DNA of 35,711 nucleotides from a virus. The DNA lies in IMG/VR virus record IMGVR_UViG_3300035670_000724, positions 1-35,711 of that record; one strand, given 5' to 3'. A program made the translations under genes and the position numbers. The notes below the pieces were generated by a model. That model did no database searches. It saw only the letters and a list, made by a program, of their open reading frames with translations, and had not been told where the DNA came from. Position 1 is the stretch's first letter; each line of letters opens with the position of its first letter. Of the stretch, positions 23,931 to 35,711 are shown piece by piece.

Positions 23931-24571
23931 TTATTTCCGGCGGCTGAAAAACGCCGCGATTTTGTCGTGAAGGTCCGGCGCTTCCTGCACTTCGACTTCA
24001 TCCGGCGCGTCAAACCGCGGCACAAAATCCTGTGCGGTAAACGGTTCCGGTTTGCGCCTCACGTCCCGGTTGACGTTGGCGATGACCGACGCGACGATGC
24101 CGCTGCGCAGGTCGTCACGCACTTCGCCCCACGGGTCGATGCGATACAGCGCCAGCCACTCGCCCAGGTGATGCGGGCGCATTTCCGCCAGCATCCGGTC
24201 GGGGTTTGCGTACCCCAAATTTAAGGCCAGCCGCAGGATCAGCTGGCGGCGGGGCTGGCCTCGGAGTTTTTTGCAGCTTCGTCCGGCAGCAGTCCGTTGA
24301 CACGGAACACCGCCGTCAGCAGCGGCATGAGCTTGGCGCGGGCGGTCTGTTTCAGCGCCGGGATCTGGGCGTCGGTGAAGACCGGTTCCCCTTTTGCGGT
24401 GAAGGTGCAGCGCACCAGCCACTTGTAGTCGGCGTCGGCACCGTCGCGGAACCCTTCGACATCGGCGGCGCTGGGTAACTCGCGCACGACGATGTCGAAC
24501 CCGTTGAACTGCAGTTTTTCTTCCCGCGGCGCCAGGGCCGCGAGAATGCCGTCACTGATGGACTTGGTCAT
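23931..24571 (-). CDS. Tail assembly chaperone, frameshift product (gpGT-like)
   Basis: 213-residue fusion made by a -1 frameshift at codons 101-102 of the upstream frame. The second half begins LRGQPRRQLILRLALNLGYANPDRMLAEM and contains the DUF4035-like motif GEWLALYRIDPWGE. As with lambda gpG/gpGT, the longer form is made at a low ratio and helps load tail tube subunits on the tape measure. No start of its own is evident for the second frame, which supports frameshifting over a separate gene. Confidence 0.9.
24225..24272 (-). promoter_or_regulatory. Programmed -1 frameshift site with stem-loop
   Basis: The slippery heptamer A AAA AAC (24272-24266) is in the correct phase (zero-frame codons AAA AAC). 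Five bases later begins GGCCAGCC (24260-24253), which pairs perfectly with GGCTGGCC (24232-24225) across a 20-base loop. The zero frame stops 11 residues after the slip, while the -1 frame runs on for 111 residues. Confidence 0.92.
24239..24571 (-). CDS. Tail assembly chaperone, short form (gpG-like)
   Basis: 110 residues, the zero-frame product. LQFNGFDIVVRELPSAADVEGFRD...YKWLVRCTFTAKGEPVFTD...IPALKQTARAKLMPLLTAVFRVNGL is the usual gpG-type pattern. It is abundant relative to the fusion and coats the tape measure before tube assembly. It is 3 bases after the major tail protein gene. Confidence 0.88.
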   Translation of the reverse strand: MTKSISDGILAALAPREEKLQFNGFDIVVRELPSAADVEGFRDGADADYKWLVRCTFTAKGEPVFTDAQIPALKQTARAKLMPLLTAVFRVNGLLPDEAAKNSEASPAAS

Positions 24572-24574
24572 GGA

Positions 24575-24991
24575 TTACGCCCAGACCGCCCGGCCGGTGA
24601 TCGCCAGCGTGACCGGCGTGGTGATCTTGTCGTTGAACGGTGCGTTGACCGGGAAGTTGACGACGTACGCGAAAAACGTGATCGTCACCGGCGTGCTGCT
24701 GGGAATGGTGATTTTCCATTCCAGCTTGTCGCCATCATAACGGGCATCGCGCAGGGCCTGGTGCACAGCGTTGTTCGGGTTCAGTTTCAGCGTGAACGTG
24801 GCGTTGCCTTCGTCAACCAGCCCGGCGATTTTCTCGGCGGCGGTCGAGTCCAAGTCACTGGAATCGATGATTGACAGCGCGCCGTCAAGGCCGTTGATGT
24901 CGATGATATTGCCGACCAGCGTGAACGACGTGGGGCTGCCCGCCGGGGAATAATGCAGGGTGGTGCCTTGGGTTTTGATGGCGTCAGACAT
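24575..24991 (-). CDS. Major tail tube protein
   Basis: 138 residues. The family resembles small tube proteins of HK97/lambda-type tails: MSDAIKTQGTTLHYS...SFTLVGNIIDINGLDGALSIIDSSDLDSTAAEKIAGLVDEG, then FTLKLNPNN and a beta-rich C-terminus (TITFFAYVVNFPVNAP). Hexamer rings of this protein form the tail tube. Its location directly before the G/GT gene is standard. Confidence 0.88.
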   Translation of the reverse strand: MSDAIKTQGTTLHYSPAGSPTSFTLVGNIIDINGLDGALSIIDSSDLDSTAAEKIAGLVDEGNATFTLKLNPNNAVHQALRDARYDGDKLEWKITIPSSTPVTITFFAYVVNFPVNAPFNDKITTPVTLAITGRAVWA

Positions 24992-25006
24992 GGTTGTCTT
25001 GCTCCT

Positions 25007-25387
25007 TTACGTTGTGCTGCGGTACCAGATTGAAAAATCCCTGTAATGCCCGAACCGTTTGGTGTCGGGTTCATAGACGTCTTGCCCGGATGGTTCGGGC
25101 ATCGCGGCGAATGTCGCCGCCTCGGTTTGAAAACGGATGCGCACCAGTTCGGCCAGCGCCTTGGCTTGCGTGTAACTCCCCGCCCAGACGTTGATCTGGA
25201 ACCGGTAGCGGATCAGGTTGCTGTCATCGCCATCCAGCCCGCTGGCCGGGTCATCGCTGACTTGCTGATAAGTGATAGCCGGCAGCGTGCTGGCGTGTAA
25301 CAGCATCGGGTGAATGCGGTCTTGAACCAGTGCGGCGATGTTGCTGTCGCTTTGCAGATGGGCTTTCAGGTCGGCTTCGATGGTCAT
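25007..25387 (-). CDS. Tail terminator/completion protein, DUF3168
   Basis: 126 residues. MTIEADLKAHLQSDSNIAALVQDRIHP...LPAITYQQVSDDPASGLDG...YRFQINVWAGSYTQAKALAELVR matches DUF3168 tail completion proteins, which cap the tail and join it to the head. The ATG at 25387 overlaps the previous stop by ATGA. Confidence 0.85.
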   Translation of the reverse strand: MTIEADLKAHLQSDSNIAALVQDRIHPMLLHASTLPAITYQQVSDDPASGLDGDDSNLIRYRFQINVWAGSYTQAKALAELVRIRFQTEAATFAAMPEPSGQDVYEPDTKRFGHYRDFSIWYRSTT

Positions 25388-25905
25388 GCCGCCACCCGGA
25401 TGTTCTGCACGTTTTTGACGATCACATCAAGCCCACGGCGCAGGCTGTTGAACACCGCGGTGACTGCCGCCGCTTTCTTGCCGTCAAACGCCGGACGCAG
25501 GAACGGCTGCGCGGCCATCTTGCTGGTGCCGAACTCGACCAGCCACCAATAATTAGGGTTTCCTTTGCGGCTGCTCGACTTCGGATTGCGTCGGCTGTCC
25601 GGGCCTTCGGCGAAGATATAGCCACGGCTGCGGACGCGCACATAAACCGTGCCCCATTCTTCGCGGCTGGCGTGTTCGACGATGTTGCCTTTCAGTTCGC
25701 CCGGATACCGGCGCGGGTCCGGTTCGCGCAACACCGGCGCCAGGCGTCTGGCTTCGTCGCGGATCACCCGCGCGCCGTCGTGCAGGCCGCGCATCATCCA
25801 TTTCGTGGCGGGCACGTTGGCCACGCCGATTTCACGCTGCAGGGCAACCATGCGGGCGTTCAGTTCTTTCAGCCCTTTAACCTGAAAATTGACGACGTCG
25901 CCCAT
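25384..25905 (-). CDS. HK97 gp10-like neck/tail completion protein
   Basis: 173 residues. VVNFQVKGLKELNARMVALQREIG, KWMMRGLHDGARVIRDEARRLAPV and WWLVEFGTSKMAAQPFLRPAFD follow the HK97-gp10 family, connecting head and tail. It lies between the head-closure and tail-terminator genes. Confidence 0.9.
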   Translation of the reverse strand: MGDVVNFQVKGLKELNARMVALQREIGVANVPATKWMMRGLHDGARVIRDEARRLAPVLREPDPRRYPGELKGNIVEHASREEWGTVYVRVRSRGYIFAEGPDSRRNPKSSSRKGNPNYWWLVEFGTSKMAAQPFLRPAFDGKKAAAVTAVFNSLRRGLDVIVKNVQNIRVAA

Positions 25906-25907
25906 GG

Positions 25908-26243
25908 TCAGCCCTCGTTCGCGCCCTGCTCGACCAGCAGCAGCACTTCGCGGTTGCGTTCGTTCCAGTTCAGCACGGCTTTGATGTCGAAATAGCGGCC
26001 ATCAAAACTGATGCGCTGGGCGGCTTCAATGCCGTCGCGGTGGCGCAGCCGCACTTTGTGGCTGACCACGCTTAAGTGTTCCTGCGCCAGATACGGTTCC
26101 TTGCCGGTCACCGGGTCGACGCTGGCCCAAACTGTCAGCCAGTTGGTCCAGGTCACCGCCGGTTCACCGGCCGCGTTCTGCTGCGGGCTGCCGGCGACCT
26201 TGCGCTGGATAATGATGCGGTGCCTCAGTGTTCCTGCGCGCAT
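25908..26243 (-). CDS. Head closure (head-tail adaptor) protein
   Basis: 111 residues. MRAGTLRHRIIIQRKVAGSPQQNAAGEPAVTWTNWLTVWASVDPVTGKE is typical of the SPP1 gp16-like head-closure family, and the family's I-x-Y-D-G-R-Y-type motif appears as ISFDGRYFDIKAV. It plugs the connector after packaging. Its usual neighbour, the gp6-like connector gene, is 4.2 kb away because the glycan cassette has been inserted between them. Confidence 0.9.
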   Translation of the reverse strand: MRAGTLRHRIIIQRKVAGSPQQNAAGEPAVTWTNWLTVWASVDPVTGKEPYLAQEHLSVVSHKVRLRHRDGIEAAQRISFDGRYFDIKAVLNWNERNREVLLLVEQGANEG

Positions 26244-26428
26244 CGGCCTGCCCTCAAAAATGCCATCAGTTCACCGTGATTCTGCGGTTTCCAGCCGGCG
26301 GCCATACGTTGGCAGCCGTCACATTCACAGGCTTTTGCGCAATCCGGATCGCGTTGTGCGTCAACCCAGCATTTGCAGTGTTTACAGCGCACAAAATCCG
26401 CGCTGTCACCACCCGAGGATGTAGTCAC
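26225..26428 (-). CDS. Cys-rich mini-protein, probable zinc binder
   Basis: 67 residues, GTG start. CKHCKCW...CAKACECDGCQRM contains eight clustered Cys in CxxC-like pairs plus one nearer the C-terminus, consistent with one or two zinc sites. It overlaps the FkbM gene by 23 bases and the head-closure gene by 19. It is the last member of the glycan block; whether it belongs functionally to it or to the head genes is unknown. Confidence 0.6.
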   Translation of the reverse strand: MTTSSGGDSADFVRCKHCKCWVDAQRDPDCAKACECDGCQRMAAGWKPQNHGELMAFLRAGRCAQEH

Positions 26429-27053
26429 CGGACATCACCGACAGCAGGTTCGCGCCCAGGCTTTTCAGGTAATCCACCGCTTCCGTTTCCTGCAATCCGA
26501 ACTTTTGCGCGCGGCCCGGTTTCTGCTCGACGCACACGATGGGCCTGCAGCGTTTCAGCATGGCTTCGCCACCGCGCAGGGCGAACAGCTCAAACCCTTC
26601 GCAGTCCAGTTTCACAAAATCCACATCGGGCAGGTCGTAGTCATCCAGCCGCACCAGCGGGATTTCGCCTTCACCATTGACCCATGAATCGCCGCTGCTG
26701 GTGTCGCTGGTGTGGATCGACACCGTGCCGGCCTTGTCACCCAGCGCCACCGGATACAGCAGCACACCGTCGCGCATGTTGACATTGCGCGTGAAGCATT
26801 CGCGGTGCACGGCCACCGGCTCAAAGGCGTGCAGGAACTGGAACCGCTTTTCCAAGTGCATTGACCACAGCCCGCAATGGCCACCCACATCGATGGCGGT
26901 GCGGAAGTTGCGGACGAACGACAGCGCCTTCGTCAGTTTGTGGTGCTGATAGGTTGGCTTGCCGTCGACGATTTCATTTTTCTGCTGCATCCAGTCGATC
27001 AGGTGCGTTTCATGTTCAGGCAGCCACAGCCCGCGCCACTGTTTGATGTCCAA
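26406..27053 (-). CDS. FkbM-family methyltransferase
   Basis: 215 residues. SAM-binding motif I AIDVGGHCGLWS (53-64), an acidic EP at 78-79 and the FkbM signature VDFVKLDCEGFELFALRGGE (about 144-163). FkbM enzymes O-methylate sugars and polyketides and are common in surface-glycan loci. The likely start is TTG at 27053 with GGGGGA just upstream, overlapping the GT9-like gene by 38 bases. Likely substrate: a hydroxyl on the glycan made by the neighbouring transferases. Confidence 0.88.
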   Translation of the reverse strand: MDIKQWRGLWLPEHETHLIDWMQQKNEIVDGKPTYQHHKLTKALSFVRNFRTAIDVGGHCGLWSMHLEKRFQFLHAFEPVAVHRECFTRNVNMRDGVLLYPVALGDKAGTVSIHTSDTSSGDSWVNGEGEIPLVRLDDYDLPDVDFVKLDCEGFELFALRGGEAMLKRCRPIVCVEQKPGRAQKFGLQETEAVDYLKSLGANLLSVMSGDYILGW

Positions 27054-27810
27054 TTAAATCCCCCAATGCCAAGGCCACCGCCTCTGGTTTGATCGCCGCC
27101 ATCGCGGCCTTGCAATGCTCACAGGCCACCCGCATGCCACAGCCCAGCGGGTGCTCCGCACTCTCTACATAAAACGCCCGCTGCCCGGCGTATCCGGTCA
27201 CAGCGGGGCTGATGTATCCGCCATAAATCACCACCGCCGGAATACCAAACACCGCCGCGGTGTGGTGCATGCCGCCTTCCGGCAATACTGCTGCGCGTGC
27301 GTTGGCCATCACCGCAGCCGCGTGGCGGATGTTGCGGGTGACTATGAATTCAGCGCCTTCCAGCACCGGGGTGTTGTTCGGCCCCAGCTGCGTCACCGTG
27401 ATGCCGCGCTGGCGCAACAGCCAGGCCAGTTTGTTCCAGTTGACCCAGCCCCATTGTTTGTTCGGGCTGGCGCCGGGCTTGATGTGCGGTTCAAGAATGA
27501 CGCGGCCGGCATATTGTTTGCCGAACGCCTGTTCGTGGTCGCTCAGATAAATTTCACCCAGCGGCGGGGTGTAAGCCCGCCACGTCCAGCGGTCGCCGGC
27601 CTTGCTGACGGTGTAGGCCCGCAGGTGGTCGACCCGCGCATGCACCACCTGAAAATCGCCCTGTTCCCCCGGCTGCGCCAGCCGCGGATTGTTGTAATAC
27701 GCATCCGACCAGCGTTCACCATTTTCCAGCACCAGCCGGACACGGCGGGGGTCGGTTTTCTGGGCCTCCCGCGCCATGCCGGTGGCCATGATGTCGTCAC
27801 CCCAGCCCAT
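27016..27810 (-). CDS. GT9-like glycosyltransferase (heptosyltransferase fold)
   Basis: 264 residues. The N-terminal MGWGDDIMATG loop and C-terminal LPEGGMHHTAAVFGIPAVVIYGG (about 176-198) match the nucleotide-sugar-binding half of GT-B, GT9-type enzymes such as LPS heptosyltransferases. Three Cys near the C-terminus (GCGMRVACEHC) recall GT9-like proteins of phage and polysaccharide loci. It is shorter than cellular heptosyltransferases (about 330-350), so the N-terminal domain is reduced. Sugar donor unknown. Confidence 0.85.
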   Translation of the reverse strand: MGWGDDIMATGMAREAQKTDPRRVRLVLENGERWSDAYYNNPRLAQPGEQGDFQVVHARVDHLRAYTVSKAGDRWTWRAYTPPLGEIYLSDHEQAFGKQYAGRVILEPHIKPGASPNKQWGWVNWNKLAWLLRQRGITVTQLGPNNTPVLEGAEFIVTRNIRHAAAVMANARAAVLPEGGMHHTAAVFGIPAVVIYGGYISPAVTGYAGQRAFYVESAEHPLGCGMRVACEHCKAAMAAIKPEAVALALGDLIGHQTVARAVAA

Positions 27811-28406
27811 CAGCGAACCCAGTGCTGCACCAGCTCCCCGCGCGGGCCGTCACAAACCTGCTCTAGCCGCATCCCGGCGGCAGGCAATATCTGTCGGCTG
27901 TCGCAGGACACGCTGCGGTTTTGCTTGTACGGGATAACACCTGTCGACCCTATTGGCAGCCGCAACACTAGGCGCTGCCGGGCAAGGCTGGCCATGTTTG
28001 CCAGCGCAGTTCCGGGGTCCGGCAGTTTGTGCACTATGGCCAGCGCCAAAACGATGTCTGCCTGACCCTTCCAGAAAACTTTAAAATCCTCGGGCACTTC
28101 AGGATTTACGAATCCTGCCAAGTCATAACCGACAAAACCACAGCGCGATGCAATCCCGGCAAGTTGCGCCTGTTCGTTAGCGGTTTTCACAAACCGGTCT
28201 TGTAGTTCAAAACCCAGCACATGGGCGCGGTGTTTCGCAAACTCGATGCCGATCAGCCCTTCGGCACAGCCGAAATCGATCACCGTTTTTCCAGCACACT
28301 CCGCCAGCGCGGGTTCCAGCCCCATCATCTGTTCGGCCAGTGTGCGTTCGCCACGCTGCACGCCGGGAATGGCCAGCCAGCCTTTTAGCGGTTCATTGCC
28401 TGACAT
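27810..28406 (-). CDS. Class I SAM-dependent methyltransferase
   Basis: 198 residues. Motif I TVIDFGCAEGLIGIEFAKHRAHVLGFEL (about 41-68) and a following ADIVLALAIVHKLPDPGTAL segment show a Rossmann methyltransferase of the small-molecule/glycan type. Its stop overlaps the next start by TGATG, and it overlaps the upstream gene by 22 bases. It looks poorer in GC than its neighbours, which suggests separate acquisition. Substrate unknown. Confidence 0.82.
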   Translation of the reverse strand: MSGNEPLKGWLAIPGVQRGERTLAEQMMGLEPALAECAGKTVIDFGCAEGLIGIEFAKHRAHVLGFELQDRFVKTANEQAQLAGIASRCGFVGYDLAGFVNPEVPEDFKVFWKGQADIVLALAIVHKLPDPGTALANMASLARQRLVLRLPIGSTGVIPYKQNRSVSCDSRQILPAAGMRLEQVCDGPRGELVQHWVR

Positions 28407-29131
28407 GCCATTCCCTGTTCAATTTCGGGCAGCGTCCACTGCTGGTCAGCCAGTACATTCGCCCAGGCTTCGCGGAACGGCGGCTGGATCCCGTGCGCCG
28501 CCGATTGCGGGCTGGTCCATACCGGCACACCAAACAGCAGGGCTTCGACCGCCGCGGAACTGGCCCAGGTGACCAGCAGTGCGGCGTTCATCAAATCGTT
28601 GTGCAGCGTGGCCGCCATGCGGGCCTTGTCGGCATGCCAGGGGCGCACGATGATGCGTCGCACCGGCTGAGTGCCCAGATACTGCTGGACCTGCCGCTGC
28701 CAATCGTCGGGGCTGACTCCGGCGACGGTTTCCATGAACAGGTCGGACTGCAAACACACCACCACGTTTTGCCCGACGCCTTCGCGCCACGGCCTGACGC
28801 GCACGCCAAGGGCTTCACGCCGGTGGCCATCGGAACAGCCTTGGCCATCGTGCTGCAGCCGGTTTTTGGTGATGCGGTAATACGCGCCGCGCCCGGCGTC
28901 AAAATAGCCGTTGTCAATGTAGTACCAGTCCCGCCCTTCGGCCTTGGCTTGTTGCCACAGGTGGGCGGTTTCCGGCGTCACGCCATAAAACACCGCCGCG
29001 CCGGGCAGCAGCTGCGCCGGGATGTAGCTGGCGACACAGGCTTCATGCCCCTGCCGCTTGGCACCCTCGGCGAAGGCTTCGCACAGCCTGGCGGCTTTAA
29101 CCTTGCCGGGTGTGCTGTAACAGGTGAACAA
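28385..29131 (-). CDS. Glycosyltransferase-like protein (capsule-type GT-B), paralogue of its neighbour
   Basis: 248 residues from a TTG at 29131, preceded by GGGGGTG; longer starts would run deep into the previous gene. The C-terminal half has IIVRPWHADK (about 160-169) and LLVTWASSAAVEALLFGVPVWTS (about 185-207), typical of capsule-type GT-B enzymes that place a nucleotide or phosphate in a cleft below the WASSA helix. The same motif order occurs in the adjacent gene, so the two are paralogues. Donor and acceptor unknown. Confidence 0.75.
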   Translation of the reverse strand: MFTCYSTPGKVKAARLCEAFAEGAKRQGHEACVASYIPAQLLPGAAVFYGVTPETAHLWQQAKAEGRDWYYIDNGYFDAGRGAYYRITKNRLQHDGQGCSDGHRREALGVRVRPWREGVGQNVVVCLQSDLFMETVAGVSPDDWQRQVQQYLGTQPVRRIIVRPWHADKARMAATLHNDLMNAALLVTWASSAAVEALLFGVPVWTSPQSAAHGIQPPFREAWANVLADQQWTLPEIEQGMACQAMNR

Positions 29132-29903
29132 AGGGCACCCCCGCGGCAATTTCGTCAACCGTCCACTGCGACCAGGCCAGCCGTACGAACGCGGCCTGCC
29201 GGTCATCGTGTTCGGGCAGTCGTTCAACCGCGGCCAGTTGCGTGGCGGCGGCGCTTTTGCAGATCCAGTGCGGCCCGGTGCAGATCACCGGAATCCCCGC
29301 AGCCAGGGCATGAACCCCGGCGCTGGATGCCCAGATCACCACCGCCCAGGCGTTGGCCAGATCGTCGGCCAGCGGCGTTTGCGGTGCCTGCGCCTGCCAG
29401 TTACCTGGGTGCGGTCGCACGCGGATCGGGCGCCGGGTGTACTGGCGCAACGCGGTCAGCGTGTCATTCACCCAGTGCACGGGCATTTCAAACCCGCGCA
29501 TGCCAAACGGGCGGTTTGGGCACAGCAGCACATGGCTGCCGTCCTGCCGCCACGGTTTCAGCTCGAGATTCAAACCAGCCCAGCGTTGCCCATCACCCAC
29601 CGGCCAGCGCCCGCTGCCGTTGTGGCCATGCTCGGCGATAGCGTAATGCTGACGGCCCTGCGGGTCGCGCCCGATATAGCCATTTTCGGCAACCAGCACC
29701 CGCCCGCCTTCGGCTTCAAACCGGTCGGCCAGCTGTTCGTTGCTGCCGTAACGGTTCCAGATCACCAGCACATCACCCGGCTGGGCCTTGTTGACGCTGT
29801 GTGCGCCATGCGGGATGACGGTATAACCCGCCGTCTTCAGCCCGGCAATGAAGGCTTCATGCCGGTAATGCGGCAGCGGCCGGATCAGGCAGTAGGCTTT
29901 CAA
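29097..29903 (-). CDS. Glycosyltransferase-like protein (capsule-type GT-B)
   Basis: 268 residues from a TTG at 29903 preceded by GGGAG. It begins MKAYCLIRPLPHYRHEAFIAGLKTAGY and contains RVRPHPGNW (161-169) and VVIWASSAGVHALAAGIPVICTG (188-210), as in the next gene, and both end with a W-T-x-x-E-I motif (QWTVDEIAAG; QWTLPEIEQG). Similarity is to CDP-glycerol/capsule-type transferases by fold only; no exact family is claimed. It overlaps the upstream gene by 47 bases and the paralogue by 35. Confidence 0.75.
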   Translation of the reverse strand: MKAYCLIRPLPHYRHEAFIAGLKTAGYTVIPHGAHSVNKAQPGDVLVIWNRYGSNEQLADRFEAEGGRVLVAENGYIGRDPQGRQHYAIAEHGHNGSGRWPVGDGQRWAGLNLELKPWRQDGSHVLLCPNRPFGMRGFEMPVHWVNDTLTALRQYTRRPIRVRPHPGNWQAQAPQTPLADDLANAWAVVIWASSAGVHALAAGIPVICTGPHWICKSAAATQLAAVERLPEHDDRQAAFVRLAWSQWTVDEIAAGVPFVHLLQHTRQG

Positions 29904-30501
29904 GCGGCTCCCGTTTGAAACAGGTCAGTGCGGTGTCGGGCGAACAGTTGATGACTTCGATGCCGCGTTGCTCTAGCTGCGGCGCCACTTCATCAAACAG
30001 CCGTGCCCACTCGGCGACCGGCTGTTCGCTGCGGTTCGGGTGTTCGCCAAACCAGTGTTTTTGCCCGTTTTTGCCTCGTTTGCAGTCAAAACCCAGCAAT
30101 AAAATGCGCGAAACGCCAAGGTGCACAGCCATGTGCAGCGCCTGGTATCCGCTGCCCCGACCAGTCATCACGCCGTCCCGCGCTTCGACCAGGCCTTTTT
30201 CGCCGTAGCTTTTCAGCACGCGGACGCGCGGGTCGCCGCCGTCGTGTTCCGGCGATTCCAGCCGCACAATGCGGTCTTCCCAGCCCTTCAAGGCATCGCG
30301 GTGCCACGACCACCAGATCGGGTCGCAGAAGTACAGCAGATCAGCCCACGGGGCCAGTTTGTAGTTGTCATTGACCACAATCGTGCGCAGCCCGGCGATG
30401 CGCGTGCGGATCACTTGAGACGCGCCCACGCTGGGGCCGCTGCCGATGATCACGCACGTCTGACCGGCCCATGCCGGTTCGATCCACCAGAAACGGTTCA
30501 C
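29857..30501 (-). CDS. MptE/DUF115-like protein (putative glycosyltransferase)
   Basis: 214 residues, GTG start overlapping the connector stop (GTGA). CVIIGSGPSV at 16-25 and later SRILLLGFDCKRGKNGQKHWFGEHP match the DUF115/6-hydroxymethylpterin diphosphokinase MptE-like fold, which also includes flagellin-modifying and glycan-linked transferases. First gene of the block and coupled to the gp6-like connector gene, so it shares the head-gene transcript. Confidence 0.8.
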   Translation of the reverse strand: MNRFWWIEPAWAGQTCVIIGSGPSVGASQVIRTRIAGLRTIVVNDNYKLAPWADLLYFCDPIWWSWHRDALKGWEDRIVRLESPEHDGGDPRVRVLKSYGEKGLVEARDGVMTGRGSGYQALHMAVHLGVSRILLLGFDCKRGKNGQKHWFGEHPNRSEQPVAEWARLFDEVAPQLEQRGIEVINCSPDTALTCFKREPLESLLPDPAAAALPA

Positions 30502-31118
30502 AGTTGCAGGTTGCGATAATTCCAGATCAGTGAGTCAACCGCCATCGGCAGCGGTTTCAGGTTCACAGCGCCGACGGCTTCGCGGTTTTCATACCAGTGC
30601 CCCACCAGCAGCTTGATCGCGGCTTTCAGGGCTTGCGGCACGTTGGCGGCATAGTCCGTGGGGCTGCCGCTGCCGACGGCATAGCCGGCGACATACGTGA
30701 CCGTCACCGCGTTTATTTGTTCCCGCGCAATCGGCCAGCTGCCGTTGTATGCCGGGGTGATGCGGCCGGGTTCGTCGCTGCTGTCGACCAGGTATTCCGA
30801 TGCACTCAGGGTGGTGCTGTCGCCGTTCTGGTCGACGTAGACAATCGACGACACTGACTGCAGCGGCGGGTTCGGCACGATGATGGCCGTGCCGCCGCAG
30901 GATGCCTTCGGGAATCCATCAAGGCGCAGCACTTGCGTTTGCGTGACCAAGGCGCGGCGCGTTTCGATTTCGATTTTTTGCCGGGCCGCAGTGATCAGCG
31001 CGCTGATCAGGCTGTCATCGGCAGTGATGTCATCGTCGACGCGCAGGTGCAGTTTTGCTTCGGACAGGCTGACCGGTTCGACGGTCGGCTCGACGCTGAC
31101 GGTCACCGAACGGTTCAC
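30498..31118 (-). CDS. Head-tail connector, gp6-like (phiE125 gp8 type)
   Basis: 206 residues, GTG start. PVSLSEAKLHLRVDDDITADDSLISALITAARQKIEIETRRALVTQTQVLRLDGFP is the signature of phage gp6-like head-tail connectors, which add a ring below the portal. It follows the small connector-region gene by a GTGA overlap and is directly followed by the glycan block. Confidence 0.92.
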   Translation of the reverse strand: MNRSVTVSVEPTVEPVSLSEAKLHLRVDDDITADDSLISALITAARQKIEIETRRALVTQTQVLRLDGFPKASCGGTAIIVPNPPLQSVSSIVYVDQNGDSTTLSASEYLVDSSDEPGRITPAYNGSWPIAREQINAVTVTYVAGYAVGSGSPTDYAANVPQALKAAIKLLVGHWYENREAVGAVNLKPLPMAVDSLIWNYRNLQL

Positions 31119-31360
31119 GACAGCACCCGGCCAAACGCGCCGCCACGCTGGCGACGGTTGCGCACAGCAGCAACGGCAGGCTGCACCACGGCGGCGGTTT
31201 CAAGGCCTTGCGCAACCGGCTGGCCAGTCACTGCCACCAACGGTTCGGCCTGTTTGCGTTCAATCAGTCGGCGCGCCAGGGCGTCCGGCAGATCCTGCAC
31301 GGATCCATGCTGATAGGCGAAATTGACGCCGGCCATTGATGTCAACATGCGCACTTTCAT
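31115..31360 (-). CDS. Small head-associated protein
   Basis: 81 residues, MKVRMLTSMAGVNFAYQHGSVQDLPDALARRLIERKQAEPL. The pattern (Mk-x-R-M-L-x-S-x-A-G, then A-x-x-L-I-x-x-x-x-A-E) occurs in small proteins encoded between capsid and connector genes in many HK97-like phages. Role uncertain; the position suggests a head-tail joining or capsid-stabilising protein. It is separated from the capsid gene by a terminator. Confidence 0.7.
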   Translation of the reverse strand: MKVRMLTSMAGVNFAYQHGSVQDLPDALARRLIERKQAEPLVAVTGQPVAQGLETAAVVQPAVAAVRNRRQRGGAFGRVLS

Positions 31361-31399
31361 GGTGTCTTCCCTTTTTCCTGGCATCGCCCGCGACGCCCG

Positions 31400-31425
31400 A
31401 AAAAAGGGCCGCCCGAAGGCGGCCC
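31400..31425 (-). terminator. Terminator after the major capsid gene
   Basis: On the minus strand: perfect GGGCCGCC/GGCGGCCC stem, TTCG loop, then six T. It should lower transcription of the connector and tail genes relative to the capsid gene unless antiterminated, a way to make capsid protein in excess. Confidence 0.88.
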
Positions 31426-31444
31426 ATTCTTGAAAGCCGGCGAA

Positions 31445-32827
31445 TTAGGCCGACTGATGCACCAGGTGCTTGATGGGGCGGGTGCCGGCATCCAGCAGGT
31501 CGGTGTCGGCGCGCATCCACGCCTGGAACGCGATCTGGTAGTAGTCGGCGTAACGCTCGACCAGCCGCATCATCGTGATTTCCTGCACGGTGCGCACGAC
31601 GAACTTGCCAAGGTCGCCGAACAGCACAGATTTCGCGCTGGCACCGATGGCTGCCATGTCCTGGTTGATGTAGTAACGGCTGCCGTCGATGGTGTCCGGT
31701 TCGCCGACCGCGTAACCCGCTTGCCACAGCGCGCGGTTTTCCGAATCCTTGAGCTTTTTCAGGGCTTTCAGGGTGGAATCGTTGAACATGAAACCGGACG
31801 ACGGACGCTTGCGGTAGGCCGGATCGACGCTGTGTTTCAGGTCGATGATGTCGTCGATGGTGATCGACGCGGCGGCGGAACCGGTGACGCCAGCGGTGGA
31901 TGCCGTCACGATGCCGTTCGGCTGGCTGGAACCGGTGCCGGTGGTGCCGTACTGGTTCAGGATGCGGCCCAGACGTTCGGCCAGCGCGGTCGTCATGAAC
32001 GCATCGAGGTTGAACGCGGAATCCTGCATCAGTTCGATGGGGACCAGCACGTTTTTCGACGTGAACTTGTAGGCGTTGAACGTGACCACACCGAACGTGA
32101 AGGTCTGTTCCGATTCCTGCGTGTTGATGCCCAGCAGCGCACCCTTGTTGCTGGTGTCGTTGACGGTCGGCCACGGCAGGTCATTGCCGGTGTCCGTGCG
32201 CATCTTCATCGTCGGGGCTTCCAGGATGCCGGAGTAGTCCAGCATCGCCGTTTCCAGCTGGTTGCTGAAGCCGGTCGGGATCAGGTAGCCACCGCCGGTG
32301 GTGGTCACCGTCTGGGCGCGTTTTTCAAGGATGGCGCGCTGTTCGGCGGTGATACCGTCTTTTCCGCCTTTCAGGAACGCACGGAACGCGGCGCTGTACT
32401 GCTTTTCACGGGCTTCGTGATCGTCACCCGCTTCCGGCATTTCACGGCCGCTTCGGCGCTCGTTCAGGGGTGCGCCGGCTTCACTGGCCAGTTGCTCCTG
32501 CCGTTCGGCACGGGCAATTTCACTGGTTTTGCGGACGATGTCGGCGTCGCGCTTGTCCCACTCGGTTTCGAGTTCGCGCCGACGCGTTTCGTCTTTTTCG
32601 GCGCCGATGCGCTCCAACAGGGCGCGGTTTTGCTCGACCAGTTCGCCGCGTTCCTGCCGCAGTTTTTTACTCTGGAACAGGTCAGCTTCGGCCACGGCCA
32701 GGATGGAAAACGCGACGGCAACGCCGCCCAGGGTGGACACTTCAAGGATGGCCGCTTGTGCGACAGGAATCGCCAGCGCGGCCACGATGGCAATCAGTGC
32801 TGCTACTGCAAATTGCTTGGTTTTCAT
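31445..32827 (-). CDS. Major capsid protein, HK97 fold, with N-terminal signal-like segment
   Basis: 460 residues. Residues 180-460 are the HK97-type shell domain (GGGYLIPTGFSNQLETAMLDYSGILEAPTMKMRT; LPWPTVNDTSNKGALLGINTQESEQTFTFG; DAGTRPIKHLVH). Residues 50-145 are a charged coiled coil typical of the delta scaffold removed by the protease. The first 48 residues are unusual: MKTKQFAVAALIAIVAALAIPVAQA then another hydrophobic stretch to 48. GGAG lies 8 bases before this ATG and no good internal start exists. Confidence 0.95.
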   Translation of the reverse strand: MKTKQFAVAALIAIVAALAIPVAQAAILEVSTLGGVAVAFSILAVAEADLFQSKKLRQERGELVEQNRALLERIGAEKDETRRRELETEWDKRDADIVRKTSEIARAERQEQLASEAGAPLNERRSGREMPEAGDDHEAREKQYSAAFRAFLKGGKDGITAEQRAILEKRAQTVTTTGGGYLIPTGFSNQLETAMLDYSGILEAPTMKMRTDTGNDLPWPTVNDTSNKGALLGINTQESEQTFTFGVVTFNAYKFTSKNVLVPIELMQDSAFNLDAFMTTALAERLGRILNQYGTTGTGSSQPNGIVTASTAGVTGSAAASITIDDIIDLKHSVDPAYRKRPSSGFMFNDSTLKALKKLKDSENRALWQAGYAVGEPDTIDGSRYYINQDMAAIGASAKSVLFGDLGKFVVRTVQEITMMRLVERYADYYQIAFQAWMRADTDLLDAGTRPIKHLVHQSA

Positions 32828-32881
32828 AAAAATCTCCGTTTTAAAAAATGCCATTGGCCGCGACGAAACGCCGCGGGTGCT

Positions 32882-33502
32882 TCAGTAGCCGTTGACGCGG
32901 GCGCGCATGATGCGATCCCGCGGGATGGTGGGTTGTTCTTCGGTGCCGGTCGGCGGGGTTTGGGCCTTGCGGTATTGCTCAAGGCTACGCAGGCCGACAT
33001 CGGTGGTCGGATAGGCCGGGAACGTGACCGGACTGATGTCGAACAGCTCGACGTCGGTGATGGTGCGCAGCCAGGTGCCGTCGGCGCGTTCCTCCCAGGC
33101 TTCACCCTTGACGCGGAACCCGAACGACATCTGGCTGATGTCGCCTCGGTCGATGCTGATCTGCAGGTCGCGGGCAAACTGGGTGTCGGGCGGGATGGTT
33201 TCGGTCAGCAGGCCGGTTTCATCTTCGCGCAGGATCAGGGTGCCGGACTTGGTGCGGCCCAGCACGAAATTCGCGTCGTGGTTGAACAGACTGCGGACAT
33301 CGTCTTCCTTGATGGCGCGGGTAAACGCGCCTGGCGCGACGCGCTCAAAAAACAGCCCGGCGATGTCCGTGTCGGTATTGAACACGGCGGCATGGCCGAC
33401 GATGCGTTTTTCTTCGCTGTCACCGGTTTTGCGGGCCTCGACCTGCATGCCGTTGACGGTGTAGGCGCGGCGCTCAAAATCAGGGGTTTTCGGTTGTTTC
33501 AT
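32882..33502 (-). CDS. Prohead protease, HK97 family (S78)
   Basis: 206 residues. Catalytic features are His at LFNHD (72-76) and Ser in ISQMSFGF (122-129), followed by ELFDISPVTFPAYP. It cleaves the capsid delta domain and itself after prohead assembly. AGGAG lies just upstream of the ATG. It stands between portal and capsid genes as usual. Confidence 0.95.
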   Translation of the reverse strand: MKQPKTPDFERRAYTVNGMQVEARKTGDSEEKRIVGHAAVFNTDTDIAGLFFERVAPGAFTRAIKEDDVRSLFNHDANFVLGRTKSGTLILREDETGLLTETIPPDTQFARDLQISIDRGDISQMSFGFRVKGEAWEERADGTWLRTITDVELFDISPVTFPAYPTTDVGLRSLEQYRKAQTPPTGTEEQPTIPRDRIMRARVNGY

Positions 33503-33511
33503 GGGGAACTC

Positions 33512-34789
33512 CTACGGCTGCGAGGTCGGCGCCGGTTCATTGGTCGGCGGCTCTGCGCCAACCGCCATATTCATCGGGGTGATCACTTCGTCCATGCCCT
33601 TGTCGGTTATGGTGTTCCAGTCTTCCAGCCGGCGGGCTTCGTTGCGCGTCAGGAACGGTGCGCCGACGGCGATGCGGTAGCCATCCATGCGCGACTTGAA
33701 ATCGCCGCGCATCAGGCCGTCCAGGTTGAATTTCGCGTAGATGCCGGAACCACGCCCGAACAGCTTGCGGTTGATTTCCTGTTCGATGCGCACGCACCAC
33801 GGGGTGATGGTGTGTTTTGCATAACCGATGTCCTGCTGTTCGATGCCGGTGCCCCAGCTGGTGCTGCGCTCGGTGTCACCACCCAGGTGCGGCGGTACGC
33901 CATACCAGCCAAGGATTTCGCTGCGCTGATACTTGCGGGTTTCCAGGAACTGCGCGTCCTGCAGCGGCATTTGCACGGTGTGCAGTTTTGCGCCTTCTTC
34001 CAGAACCATGGCGCGGAATGCGTTTTCGCCGGTGAATTTTTCGTTGACCGACTGCGCCAGTTTTTTCTGCGCGTCTTCCTTCATGCGCCCCGGCACTTCC
34101 AGCACGACACCGGGCCGCGCACCGTTGGCGAAAAACTTGCTGCCGAATTCTTCGGCGGCCTTGGCCAGCCCTGCGCTGTCGCGCATTTTGCTGATCACCG
34201 ACACGCCCTTGATGCCGTCATACATCAGGCCAGGGATGTGCAGGATTTCGTCGGACGGCAAAGTCTCTTTGCCGCCGCCAGCCAGTTGCACGTCATAGAC
34301 CTGCGCACCAGAAGTCAGGCGGCGCGGCGTGACGTCCCAAGGCATCAGCGGATAAAGGTTTCGCGCGGATCCGTTGCCGATCCATTCGATGCGGTTGTAA
34401 GCGTTACCCCACAGCAGCAGGTGCGCCATCATCAGTTCGCGCCAGATGATGCTGGTGTGGTACTCGTTCGGGCTGTCGCGCAGCAGCGCGTATGCCCAAT
34501 GGCTGGTGGCGAATTCGCGGCGGTCGTTGCTGTCTCGACGGTACACATGCAGGGGCAGTGAACCGATGGTGCCACTGAGAATTCGGACGGCGGTATAAAC
34601 CGCGCCGATGCTCAAGGCCTTGCTTTCGTTCATCGAAATGCCAGCAGCGGAACGGCCGCCGGTCATCCAGTCGATCAGCCAGGAATCCGGGTTCGACAGT
34701 GACGTCGACGGATTTTCAGGGCTTGCCCGCAAAATCCAGCCGGCAACCTTGGATCGTGCCCAGACACCCAGCGCGTCGGTTAGTTTCAT
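33512..34789 (-). CDS. Portal protein, HK97 family
   Basis: 425 residues. SIGAVYTAVRILSGTIGSLPLHVYRRDSNDRRE, HWAYALLRDSPNEYHTSIIWRELMMAHLLLWGNAYNRIEW and TSWGTGIEQQDIGYAKHTITPWCVRIEQEINRKLF are standard HK97-type portal motifs. The dodecameric ring is the DNA entry channel. The ATG at 34789 overlaps the terL stop by ATGA. Confidence 0.96.
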   Translation of the reverse strand: MKLTDALGVWARSKVAGWILRASPENPSTSLSNPDSWLIDWMTGGRSAAGISMNESKALSIGAVYTAVRILSGTIGSLPLHVYRRDSNDRREFATSHWAYALLRDSPNEYHTSIIWRELMMAHLLLWGNAYNRIEWIGNGSARNLYPLMPWDVTPRRLTSGAQVYDVQLAGGGKETLPSDEILHIPGLMYDGIKGVSVISKMRDSAGLAKAAEEFGSKFFANGARPGVVLEVPGRMKEDAQKKLAQSVNEKFTGENAFRAMVLEEGAKLHTVQMPLQDAQFLETRKYQRSEILGWYGVPPHLGGDTERSTSWGTGIEQQDIGYAKHTITPWCVRIEQEINRKLFGRGSGIYAKFNLDGLMRGDFKSRMDGYRIAVGAPFLTRNEARRLEDWNTITDKGMDEVITPMNMAVGAEPPTNEPAPTSQP

Positions 34790-35711
34790 AACATCAGCAC
34801 TCCGCGGTCTTCGTACACACTCGGCCCCTGCCCTTCGCCAATCATGGCGCGGGACACTGCCAGAATCAGGGCGATGGCCGGGTCGGTCTTTTTGGCGCGT
34901 GACTGCTTGCGCGGGAACCAGTTGTCGTTCTGGTCCGGTTTAACTTCGACGTTGTTGACCGCCCAGGCTGCCACCGCATCACCGTTGTGATGCAGCCGCC
35001 CGGCTTTCAGCAGTCCGTCGATCCACTTCATGGGTGCCGACAGGTGCCGCGCTTGCAGCGCAACAGTCAGCACTTCAAAACCTTCATTCTGCAAATTGGC
35101 GATGATGCCCGGCGCACCCCACGGGTCGAACGCGATTTCCTTGATCTGCACCTGCTCGGCAGCGGTCAGGATGTCCGCTTCGATGCTGCCCTGGTCGATC
35201 ATCGAACCAGATGTCGCTGTGATCAAACCTTCGCGCACCCAGCCCTGGTAATGCTTGTTTTCCGGTTGTTCGGTGACTGATTCCGGCAGGTAGTGCCGCC
35301 AGAATGCGAAAAAGTGTTCGACGCCATCGATGTCGCATTTAAACACGCTGCACACGCTGGCGATGTCCGTGGTGTTCGCCAGGTCAACACCCAGCCAGCA
35401 TTCCTGCCCTGCAAAATCCTCAAACTTTAGCGCCTTGTCCGTGCCTTTGCGCCACGCTTCCATCGGCACCCAGGGGCTGGCGCTGGCCACCCACATGTCC
35501 AGGTGTTTCGTCTGGAACGTCGACTGCTTCCGCGCGTCGCGGATTGCCGCAGCCTGCTGTGCCAGCAGGAATTCTGGCAGGATGGACACGCCCCAGTTCG
35601 GGTTTGCCTTAATCAGCGCGTCTTCGCTGGTCCAGTCATCGCCCTCGTCGATGGTGTAGATGATGCCGAAGCGTTGTTCGTCTTCGACGACGCCTTCCAG
35701 TATCTGTTCCA
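34786..35711 (-). CDS. terL: Terminase large subunit, C-terminal part
   Basis: Continuation of the gene at 1-947 over the join (no start of its own is implied). This part contains the nuclease domain: CWLGVDLANTTDIASV with a metal-binding Asp, EIAFDPWGAPGI in the middle, and a C-terminal Asp in KKTDPAIAL. The stop overlaps the portal start. The full gene encodes 581 residues. Bases 35585-35711 duplicate the terminal repeat. Confidence 0.96.
   Translation of the reverse strand, partial: EQILEGVVEDEQRFGIIYTIDEGDDWTSEDALIKANPNWGVSILPEFLLAQQAAAIRDARKQSTFQTKHLDMWVASASPWVPMEAWRKGTDKALKFEDFAGQECWLGVDLANTTDIASVCSVFKCDIDGVEHFFAFWRHYLPESVTEQPENKHYQGWVREGLITATSGSMIDQGSIEADILTAAEQVQIKEIAFDPWGAPGIIANLQNEGFEVLTVALQARHLSAPMKWIDGLLKAGRLHHNGDAVAAWAVNNVEVKPDQNDNWFPRKQSRAKKTDPAIALILAVSRAMIGEGQGPSVYEDRGVLML
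35585..35711. repeat. Terminal direct repeat, copy 2
   Basis: Exact copy of bases 1-127; see copy 1. Merging the two gives an uninterrupted terminase gene. Confidence 0.95.

Follow-up and report, generated by a model that had tools for sequence, protein, structure and literature searches.

A putative glycosylation and methylation cassette in the neck operon of a temperate siphophage

The IMG/VR virus record IMGVR_UViG_3300035670_000724, a stretch of 35,711 bases whose whole length is referred to here as the window, carries a cassette of sugar-transfer and methylation genes that is embedded in the late operon for its structural proteins. The cassette comprises seven minus-strand genes, designated A to G, which lie between the gp6-like head-tail connector gene and the head-closure gene. 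On balance, and with modest confidence, we read it as a glycosylation pathway that is expressed late, works in the cytoplasm and modifies a structural protein of the phage, in which A would prime the glycan, B, C and E would extend it and D and F would methylate it. An earlier sequence-only reading had proposed a glycan synthesis and methylation cassette within the late structural operon, a view that the predicted families of genes A to F support.

In the proposed pathway A would attach the first acidic sugar directly to a Ser or Thr residue of a late protein of the capsid, neck or tail, drawing on 3-deoxy-D-manno-oct-2-ulosonic acid (Kdo) or a nonulosonic acid that the Gram-negative host has already made in CMP-activated form. 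Chain elongation would fall to B and C, with the GT-B architecture of the Kdo-transferase fold, and to E, a GT9 enzyme of the ADP-heptose type, and the glycan would be capped through methylation by D and F. The expected product is a short methylated virion glycan with sugars resembling the inner core of lipopolysaccharide (LPS), for which the donors would be host metabolites, namely CMP-Kdo or nonulosonate together with ADP-heptose. We infer the enzyme activities, donors and acceptor, as well as the benefit, which may be shielding of the particle or tuning of adsorption.

Gene A and the proposed initiating step

Gene A (29857..30501, minus strand like the rest of the cassette; GTG start) encodes a protein of 214 amino acids with an MptE-like/DUF115 fold that is predicted to be a Maf/GT42-like glycosyltransferase. 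Against PHROGs it matches phrog_4603, 'alpha-2,3-sialyltransferase', at 6.6e-42. Its single-sequence Pfam match to MptE-like is weak and under the cut-off, whereas 19 of 21 members of its family match MptE-like, the best at 9.4e-9. The best match of the family profile in the PDB is the GT42 sialyltransferase CstII (5e-5), while phmmer searches of the PDB with single family members, and a profile search with a tighter alignment (A3), returned nothing useful. Flavodoxin-like and ferritin matches also appeared and were judged to be due to chance.

The AlphaFold model of A has a mean predicted local distance difference test score (pLDDT) of 91.4. In a VIA comparison its best match is the Maf protein 5mu5 of Magnetospirillum, with a Z score of 16.2 over 185 residues at 3.2 Å, followed by CstI and CstII at about 12 and by mammalian sialyltransferases at 9-10; the Maf match was seen only in this second-look alignment and not in the Foldseek ranking. 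The VIA scores and the CstII profile match together place the fold of A within the Maf/GT42 sialyltransferase superfamily. Conserved across the family are the motifs GPS, N, D, GxNSGYQA and HWFGxHP, which look enzymatic. When A is aligned with CstII by hhalign the GPS and N motifs match, and the invariant residues H149 and H154 fall in the right region for the GT42 catalytic histidine (His188), within a stretch where the local alignment is ambiguous.

From the model, A is proposed to be an initiating protein O-glycosyltransferase. A clostridial Maf can transfer Kdo from CMP-Kdo to Ser/Thr residues of flagellin in Escherichia coli (PMC11339370), and a Maf-like enzyme could therefore work with a donor that is found in LPS-making hosts.

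Genes B and C and the retaining-Kdo-transferase fold

Gene B (29097..29903, 268 amino acids, TTG start) and its paralogue gene C (28385..29131, about 248 amino acids) belong to one family according to a family hidden Markov model (HMM), with single-sequence matches to Capsule_synth and DUF6716 that are weak. The longest open reading frame of C begins at 29227, where it would overlap B by 131 bases, but the TTG at 29131, with an overlap of 35 bases, is the more likely start because of a G-rich stretch upstream of it and its agreement with the start of relatives. The structure prediction that had been suggested for the MptE-like protein and both paralogues was run for A and B, and as it recasts A as Maf/GT42-like so it assigns B, first described as capsule-type, to the retaining-Kdo-transferase fold. 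The model of B (pLDDT 92.6) finds only KpsC, WbbB and KrkA among its first 28 Foldseek matches (4e-7), and reaches a Z score of 13.1 to KpsC; membership of the same family suggests that C shares this fold.

Retaining Kdo transferases are defined by a QXXXD motif with a nucleophilic Asp, a (K/R)XHP motif that binds CMP, and an acidic base (PMC10148158, PMC12887879). The column of the general base (Glu66 in KpsC, aligned with LEDGF) holds D or E in all 35 members of the B/C family, the motif being ENG in B and DNG in C. The HP motif is found in 13 of the 35 and is present in B as RPHP.

Genes D to G

Methylation is the role predicted for two genes. Gene D (27810..28406, 198 amino acids, ATG start) encodes a putative class I S-adenosylmethionine (SAM)-dependent methyltransferase, matching Methyltransf_12 (PF08242) with 31.9 bits against a cut-off of 30 and Methyltransf_31 (PF13847) with 31.1 against 27. 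Gene F (26406..27053, 215 amino acids, TTG start) belongs to the FkbM family of methyltransferases, with 48.9 bits to PF05050 (cut-off 22.7; 1e-12) and 73 bits to TIGR01444 (cut-off 37.7). Between them gene E (27016..27810, 264 amino acids, ATG start) encodes a GT9 heptosyltransferase-like protein that matches Glyco_transf_9 (PF01075) with 25.8 bits (cut-off 22) and remains under the NCBIfam equivalog cut-offs; its family profile finds the heptosyltransferases WaaF (1psw, 4.7e-6) and WaaC (2gt1, 1.9e-5) in the PDB.

Gene G (26225..26428, 67 amino acids, GTG start), a zinc-ribbon-like mini-protein with a CxxC...CxxC pattern, has no family match in Pfam, PHROGs or NCBIfam. It had been counted as part of the pathway, a role that its relatives do not bear out: in the related loci L051 and L052 the CxxC pattern is kept at 34% identity and the gene adjoins the connector, and G is probably a neighbour rather than a pathway enzyme.

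Recurrence in other phages and prophages

Loci L002-L072 were retrieved from IMG/VR by searching with genes A, B, C, E and F, L073-L080 are eight regions of GenBank phages, and 23 loci in bacterial genomes were reached through A; the collection includes some copies of the phage to which the window belongs. Family HMMs trained from the window genes were applied to all loci, which merge into 70 clusters at 85% identity. The DNA of the whole cassette, when compared with the phage collection, gave no match. Diverse siphophages and prophages nevertheless carry the families, in differing subsets and arrangements and for the most part in the stretch from the capsid genes to those for head-tail joining. 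The usual arrangement is major capsid protein (MCP), a small gene in some cases, A, other glycosyltransferases and methyltransferases, connector and head closure; an alternative, as in the window, has the connector first, then A and its companions, then head closure. The order is not fixed even among close relatives, contrary to what had been supposed: L051 and L052 have F-G-connector-Hc1 where the window has connector-A...G-Hc1, Hc1 being the head-closure gene.

Conservation as a set in related phages, the check that had been recommended, is borne out. Independent clusters found with E contain genes of the B/C family in 9/9, a GT-A-like gene in 8/9, and A and F in 7/9 each, while those found with F contain E in 14/15, B/C in 12/15, the GT-A-like gene in 9/15 and D and A in 5/15 each. 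Among the loci found with A alone, 18 have it strictly between an MCP, connector or head-closure gene on one side and a connector, head-closure or gp10 gene on the other. Over the 33 loci that do not cluster with the window, such bracketing has a P of about 1e-5 to 2e-10 if such junctions are assumed to hold a 10-20% share, a rough guide since the share is assumed, several loci are incomplete and some are related. In three loci (L083, L084 and L102) A stands beside connector genes with no recognised cassette partner. Further afield, Caulobacter jumbo phages keep the order of the window, with A, two B/C genes, a glycosyltransferase, a methyltransferase and a GT9 gene between tail and endolysin genes, in a late module, and in Detrevirus phages the surroundings of the connector genes hold A together with a GT9-like gene and one for a methyltransferase. 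In phage P1 the A homologue is pmgO, within a pmgO-pmgP-ppp-pmgQ region that is named morphogenetic.

The loci also hold families in addition to those of the window's seven genes. The GT-A-like family, which matches phrog_28018 ('unknown function'), has 40 proteins in 39 loci, including the Caulobacter jumbo phages (examples are L010:11303-12040 and L073:12323-13138). Also present are another family that matches a PHROG of glycosyltransferases, one of GT9-like proteins and more SAM methyltransferases. In the variant of L020-L023 (L021:2778-3551) a cytidylyltransferase-like domain is fused to a cupin of the mannose-6-phosphate-isomerase type, a possible phage-encoded sugar-nucleotide step. A protein with a tetratricopeptide-repeat domain and a GT9-like end lies upstream of E-F-B/C in L065 (4925-6253) and its relatives L066-L068, L070 and L071, and in L063 the gene after B/C matches a virion structural protein family.

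Are these genes, then, held together by a common product? They could instead be sugar genes that are selfish or in decay and are simply tolerated by the phage, since the set and its order vary, 23 of the 70 clusters hold just one cassette family, and motifs have been lost in C. We regard this as very improbable in view of purifying selection, repeated co-occurrence and the recurring position. In comparison with L051, L052, L054 and L055, pairwise ratios of non-synonymous to synonymous substitution (dN/dS) range over 0.22-0.38 for D, E and F; B and C, each paired with the nearest paralogue in these loci, have values that mostly lie at 0.24-0.57. F is 64-66% identical to its counterparts in L054 and L055, and against L059 it is 62% identical where the MCP is 25% and the head-closure protein 30%, which suggests that F is under stronger constraint or is exchanged as part of a module. 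The recurrence of the families at one position in phages that are not related, together with the dN/dS values, marks the cassette as more than a chance assembly.

A occurs in 75 phage records of GenBank, and all bacterial host genera named in them are Gram-negative, the remaining records being Tetraselmis-associated or uncultured, whereas a portal query of the same collection returns many phages and genera of Gram-positive bacteria. This host range suits a pathway that borrows CMP-Kdo and ADP-heptose, but it also fits an LPS target and cannot by itself separate protein from LPS.

The target of the proposed pathway

Several observations weigh against a virion glycosylation pathway. The position of the cassette in a late operon is no proof of a virion target. 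The fold of A is also resembled by the MptE pterin kinase (Z 11.7 by VIA), and Foldseek alone puts ST8SiaIII at the top, with a modest E value of 8.8e-5 and many Rossmann dehydrogenases close behind. A has none of the extra domains of a full-length Maf, its 214 residues standing against 632 and aligning only to 259-512. In the B/C family the QXXXD nucleophile motif is kept in just 3 of 35 members, B having NRPFG and C QSDLF, and C also departs from the HP motif, with RPWH. These motif states make the donors of B and C uncertain and mean that C could be inactive; the two proteins are accordingly described as using the retaining-Kdo-transferase fold and are not filed as Kdo transferases. Finally, pmgO, pmgP and pmgQ are non-essential, P1 growing in the laboratory with each of them knocked down (PMC10695390), so that any benefit is probably ecological, through shielding, adsorption or stability.

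The sequence-only reading had left two targets side by side, decoration of the virion and alteration of host LPS. If the latter applied, the enzymes would remodel the host envelope late in infection, at the LPS core or a lipid-linked intermediate, and so block superinfection or the trapping of released progeny. The fold of B and the GT9 family of E are indeed those that build capsule and LPS, and O-antigen conversion is known among relatives of phage D3. Envelope remodelling nevertheless seems unlikely to us, as the best structural match of A is a protein O-glycosyltransferase, no membrane gene or flippase occurs among the window proteins scanned, and solitary A genes exist. Moreover, the overlapping frames bind the cassette to the neck genes and not into a lysogenic conversion unit, the sole promoter-like match within 24500-33600 is on the opposite strand, and an alteration confined to the late stage of infection would have little time to act. 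A protein target is thus favoured over LPS by the resemblance of A to Maf, by its occurrence without cassette partners and by the location at the neck.

It is also conceivable that A serves chiefly in the virion or its assembly, a glycosyltransferase fold having been put to new use at the neck, with the other genes as an attached moron. Its homologues in PAJU2 (ORF010, L076:4986-5555) and Klebsiella phage Eowyn (L104:4986-5558) are labelled 'structural protein', a label whose basis could not be checked; PMC4936722 mentions PAJU2 and does not settle whether the homologue occurs in virions. A lies among connector genes and can stand alone, and the pmg genes of P1 bear a morphogenetic name. Such a role is distinctly unlikely given that the conserved motifs of A look enzymatic, that A shifts between positions and that it is non-essential in P1.

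Virion glycosylation remains the preferred reading, and it can be taken further into a bolder and doubtful generalisation: that among phages of Gram-negative bacteria many assemble an O-methylated, LPS-inner-core-like glycan of a Kdo-type sugar and heptose directly on a capsid or neck protein from host CMP-Kdo and ADP-heptose, with a minimal Maf as the initiating enzyme and a new GT-B family, of the Kdo-transferase fold but without the known nucleophile, extending the chain.

Genome context

The record ends in a direct repeat of 127 bases (1-127 and 35585-35711) and the large terminase frame reads through the junction of this repeat, so that it most likely represents the entire genome, which would be about 35.6 kb long. 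Its gene content is that of a temperate siphophage, with an integrase, an excisionase-like protein, a CII-like activator, an O-like replication protein, a DnaB-like helicase, a tape measure and a J-like central fibre. A protein at 9310-9645 matches the N-terminal domain of dATP/dGTP diphosphohydrolase.

On the minus strand the order is major capsid, a small gene (31115-31384), connector, A-B-C-D-E-F-G, head closure, gp10-like, tail terminator and major tail protein. The seven genes lie close to where they had been placed, and Pfam and PHROGs confirm both flanks: the connector (30498..31118, minus strand) matches PF05135 Phage_connect_1 at 2.9e-13 and phrog_442 at 1.3e-28, and the head-closure protein Hc1 (25908..26243, minus strand, ATG start) matches PF05521 Phage_HCP at 3.8e-26 and phrog_25 (Hc1) at 3.1e-21. 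The MCP gene (31445..32854, minus strand), which served as an anchor for locus comparison and encodes a candidate glycan acceptor, is assigned by its place in the gene order portal-protease-MCP-connector. From connector to head closure the successive overlaps are 4, 47, 131, 22, 1, 38, 23 and 19 bases, so every junction overlaps, as had been noted along with the GTG (A and G) and TTG (B, C and F) starts. Directly after the major capsid gene, before the connector and cassette segment, a terminator-like hairpin (31406..31425, minus strand), identified by consensus match only, has eight G-C pairs, a UUCG loop and a T tract, and may possibly reduce expression of the neck and cassette genes.

The GC content of the cassette is 0.624, against 0.620 for the flanking structural genes, and third-position GC is similar, with lower values in D and G; a recent acquisition is therefore unsupported by composition. 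Among the window proteins scanned (most, though not all, open reading frames) there are no genes for sugar-nucleotide synthesis, membrane export, a flippase or a polymerase, in keeping with the earlier remark that the last two are missing. Phage glycosyltransferases can decorate DNA, a possibility discussed in PMC12619734, and the enzymes might likewise hypermodify the phage genome. We consider this extremely improbable, as the window genes scanned include no base hydroxymethylase or anything comparable, the cassette sits in the late structural operon, and A and E look like transferases that act on protein and LPS.

Comparison with known systems

The searchable literature, of which coverage was partial, yielded no earlier description of this cassette in its combination, enzymes and position, nor any report of phage-particle protein glycosylation outside the mycobacteriophages. 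If the proposal is correct, virion glycosylation would be a widespread trait among phages of Gram-negative bacteria, with cultivable relatives in D3, PAJU2 and the Caulobacter jumbo phages. It would also give a function to genes that have long borne the labels 'morphogenetic', 'alpha-2,3-sialyltransferase' or hypothetical, and would be a source of compact protein O-glycosyltransferases and of a family in which the catalytic residues of the Kdo-transferase fold are altered.

In mycobacteriophages the capsid and tail-tube subunits are glycosylated, which affects antibody recognition (Freeman et al. 2023, as cited in PMC12691614 and PMC12619734). The likeness lies in glycan-bearing particles, shown by experiment in mycobacteriophages and proposed here from gene content; the differences are the Gram-negative hosts, the combination of Maf/GT42, Kdo-transferase-fold, GT9 and methyltransferase genes, and the location among genes for the joining of head and tail. 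Maf flagellin glycosyltransferases, which carry out O-glycosylation of Ser/Thr in the cytoplasm, have the closest fold to A, but they are bacterial, act on flagellin and, in the case of 5mu5, are about three times as long. Flagellin glycosylation islands similarly pair glycosyltransferases with FkbM and SAM methyltransferases (PMC4875605), and unlike the window, as far as its proteins were scanned, they carry sugar-synthesis genes.

With the retaining Kdo transferases of GT99, GT107 and GT140 (WbbB, KpsC and KrkA) B shares the fold and the acidic base, whereas B and C are without QXXXD. The LPS heptosyltransferases WaaC and WaaF of GT9 are nearest to E by profile, although E is shorter and phage-borne. 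Comparable phage regions are the pmgO-pmgP-ppp-pmgQ genes of P1 and orf7, orf12 and orf13 of D3, where, as in the cassette, A homologues lie beside other genes for sugar and methyl transfer; these are smaller sets without the B/C/E/F array, and have been annotated merely as morphogenetic, sialyltransferase-like or hypothetical.

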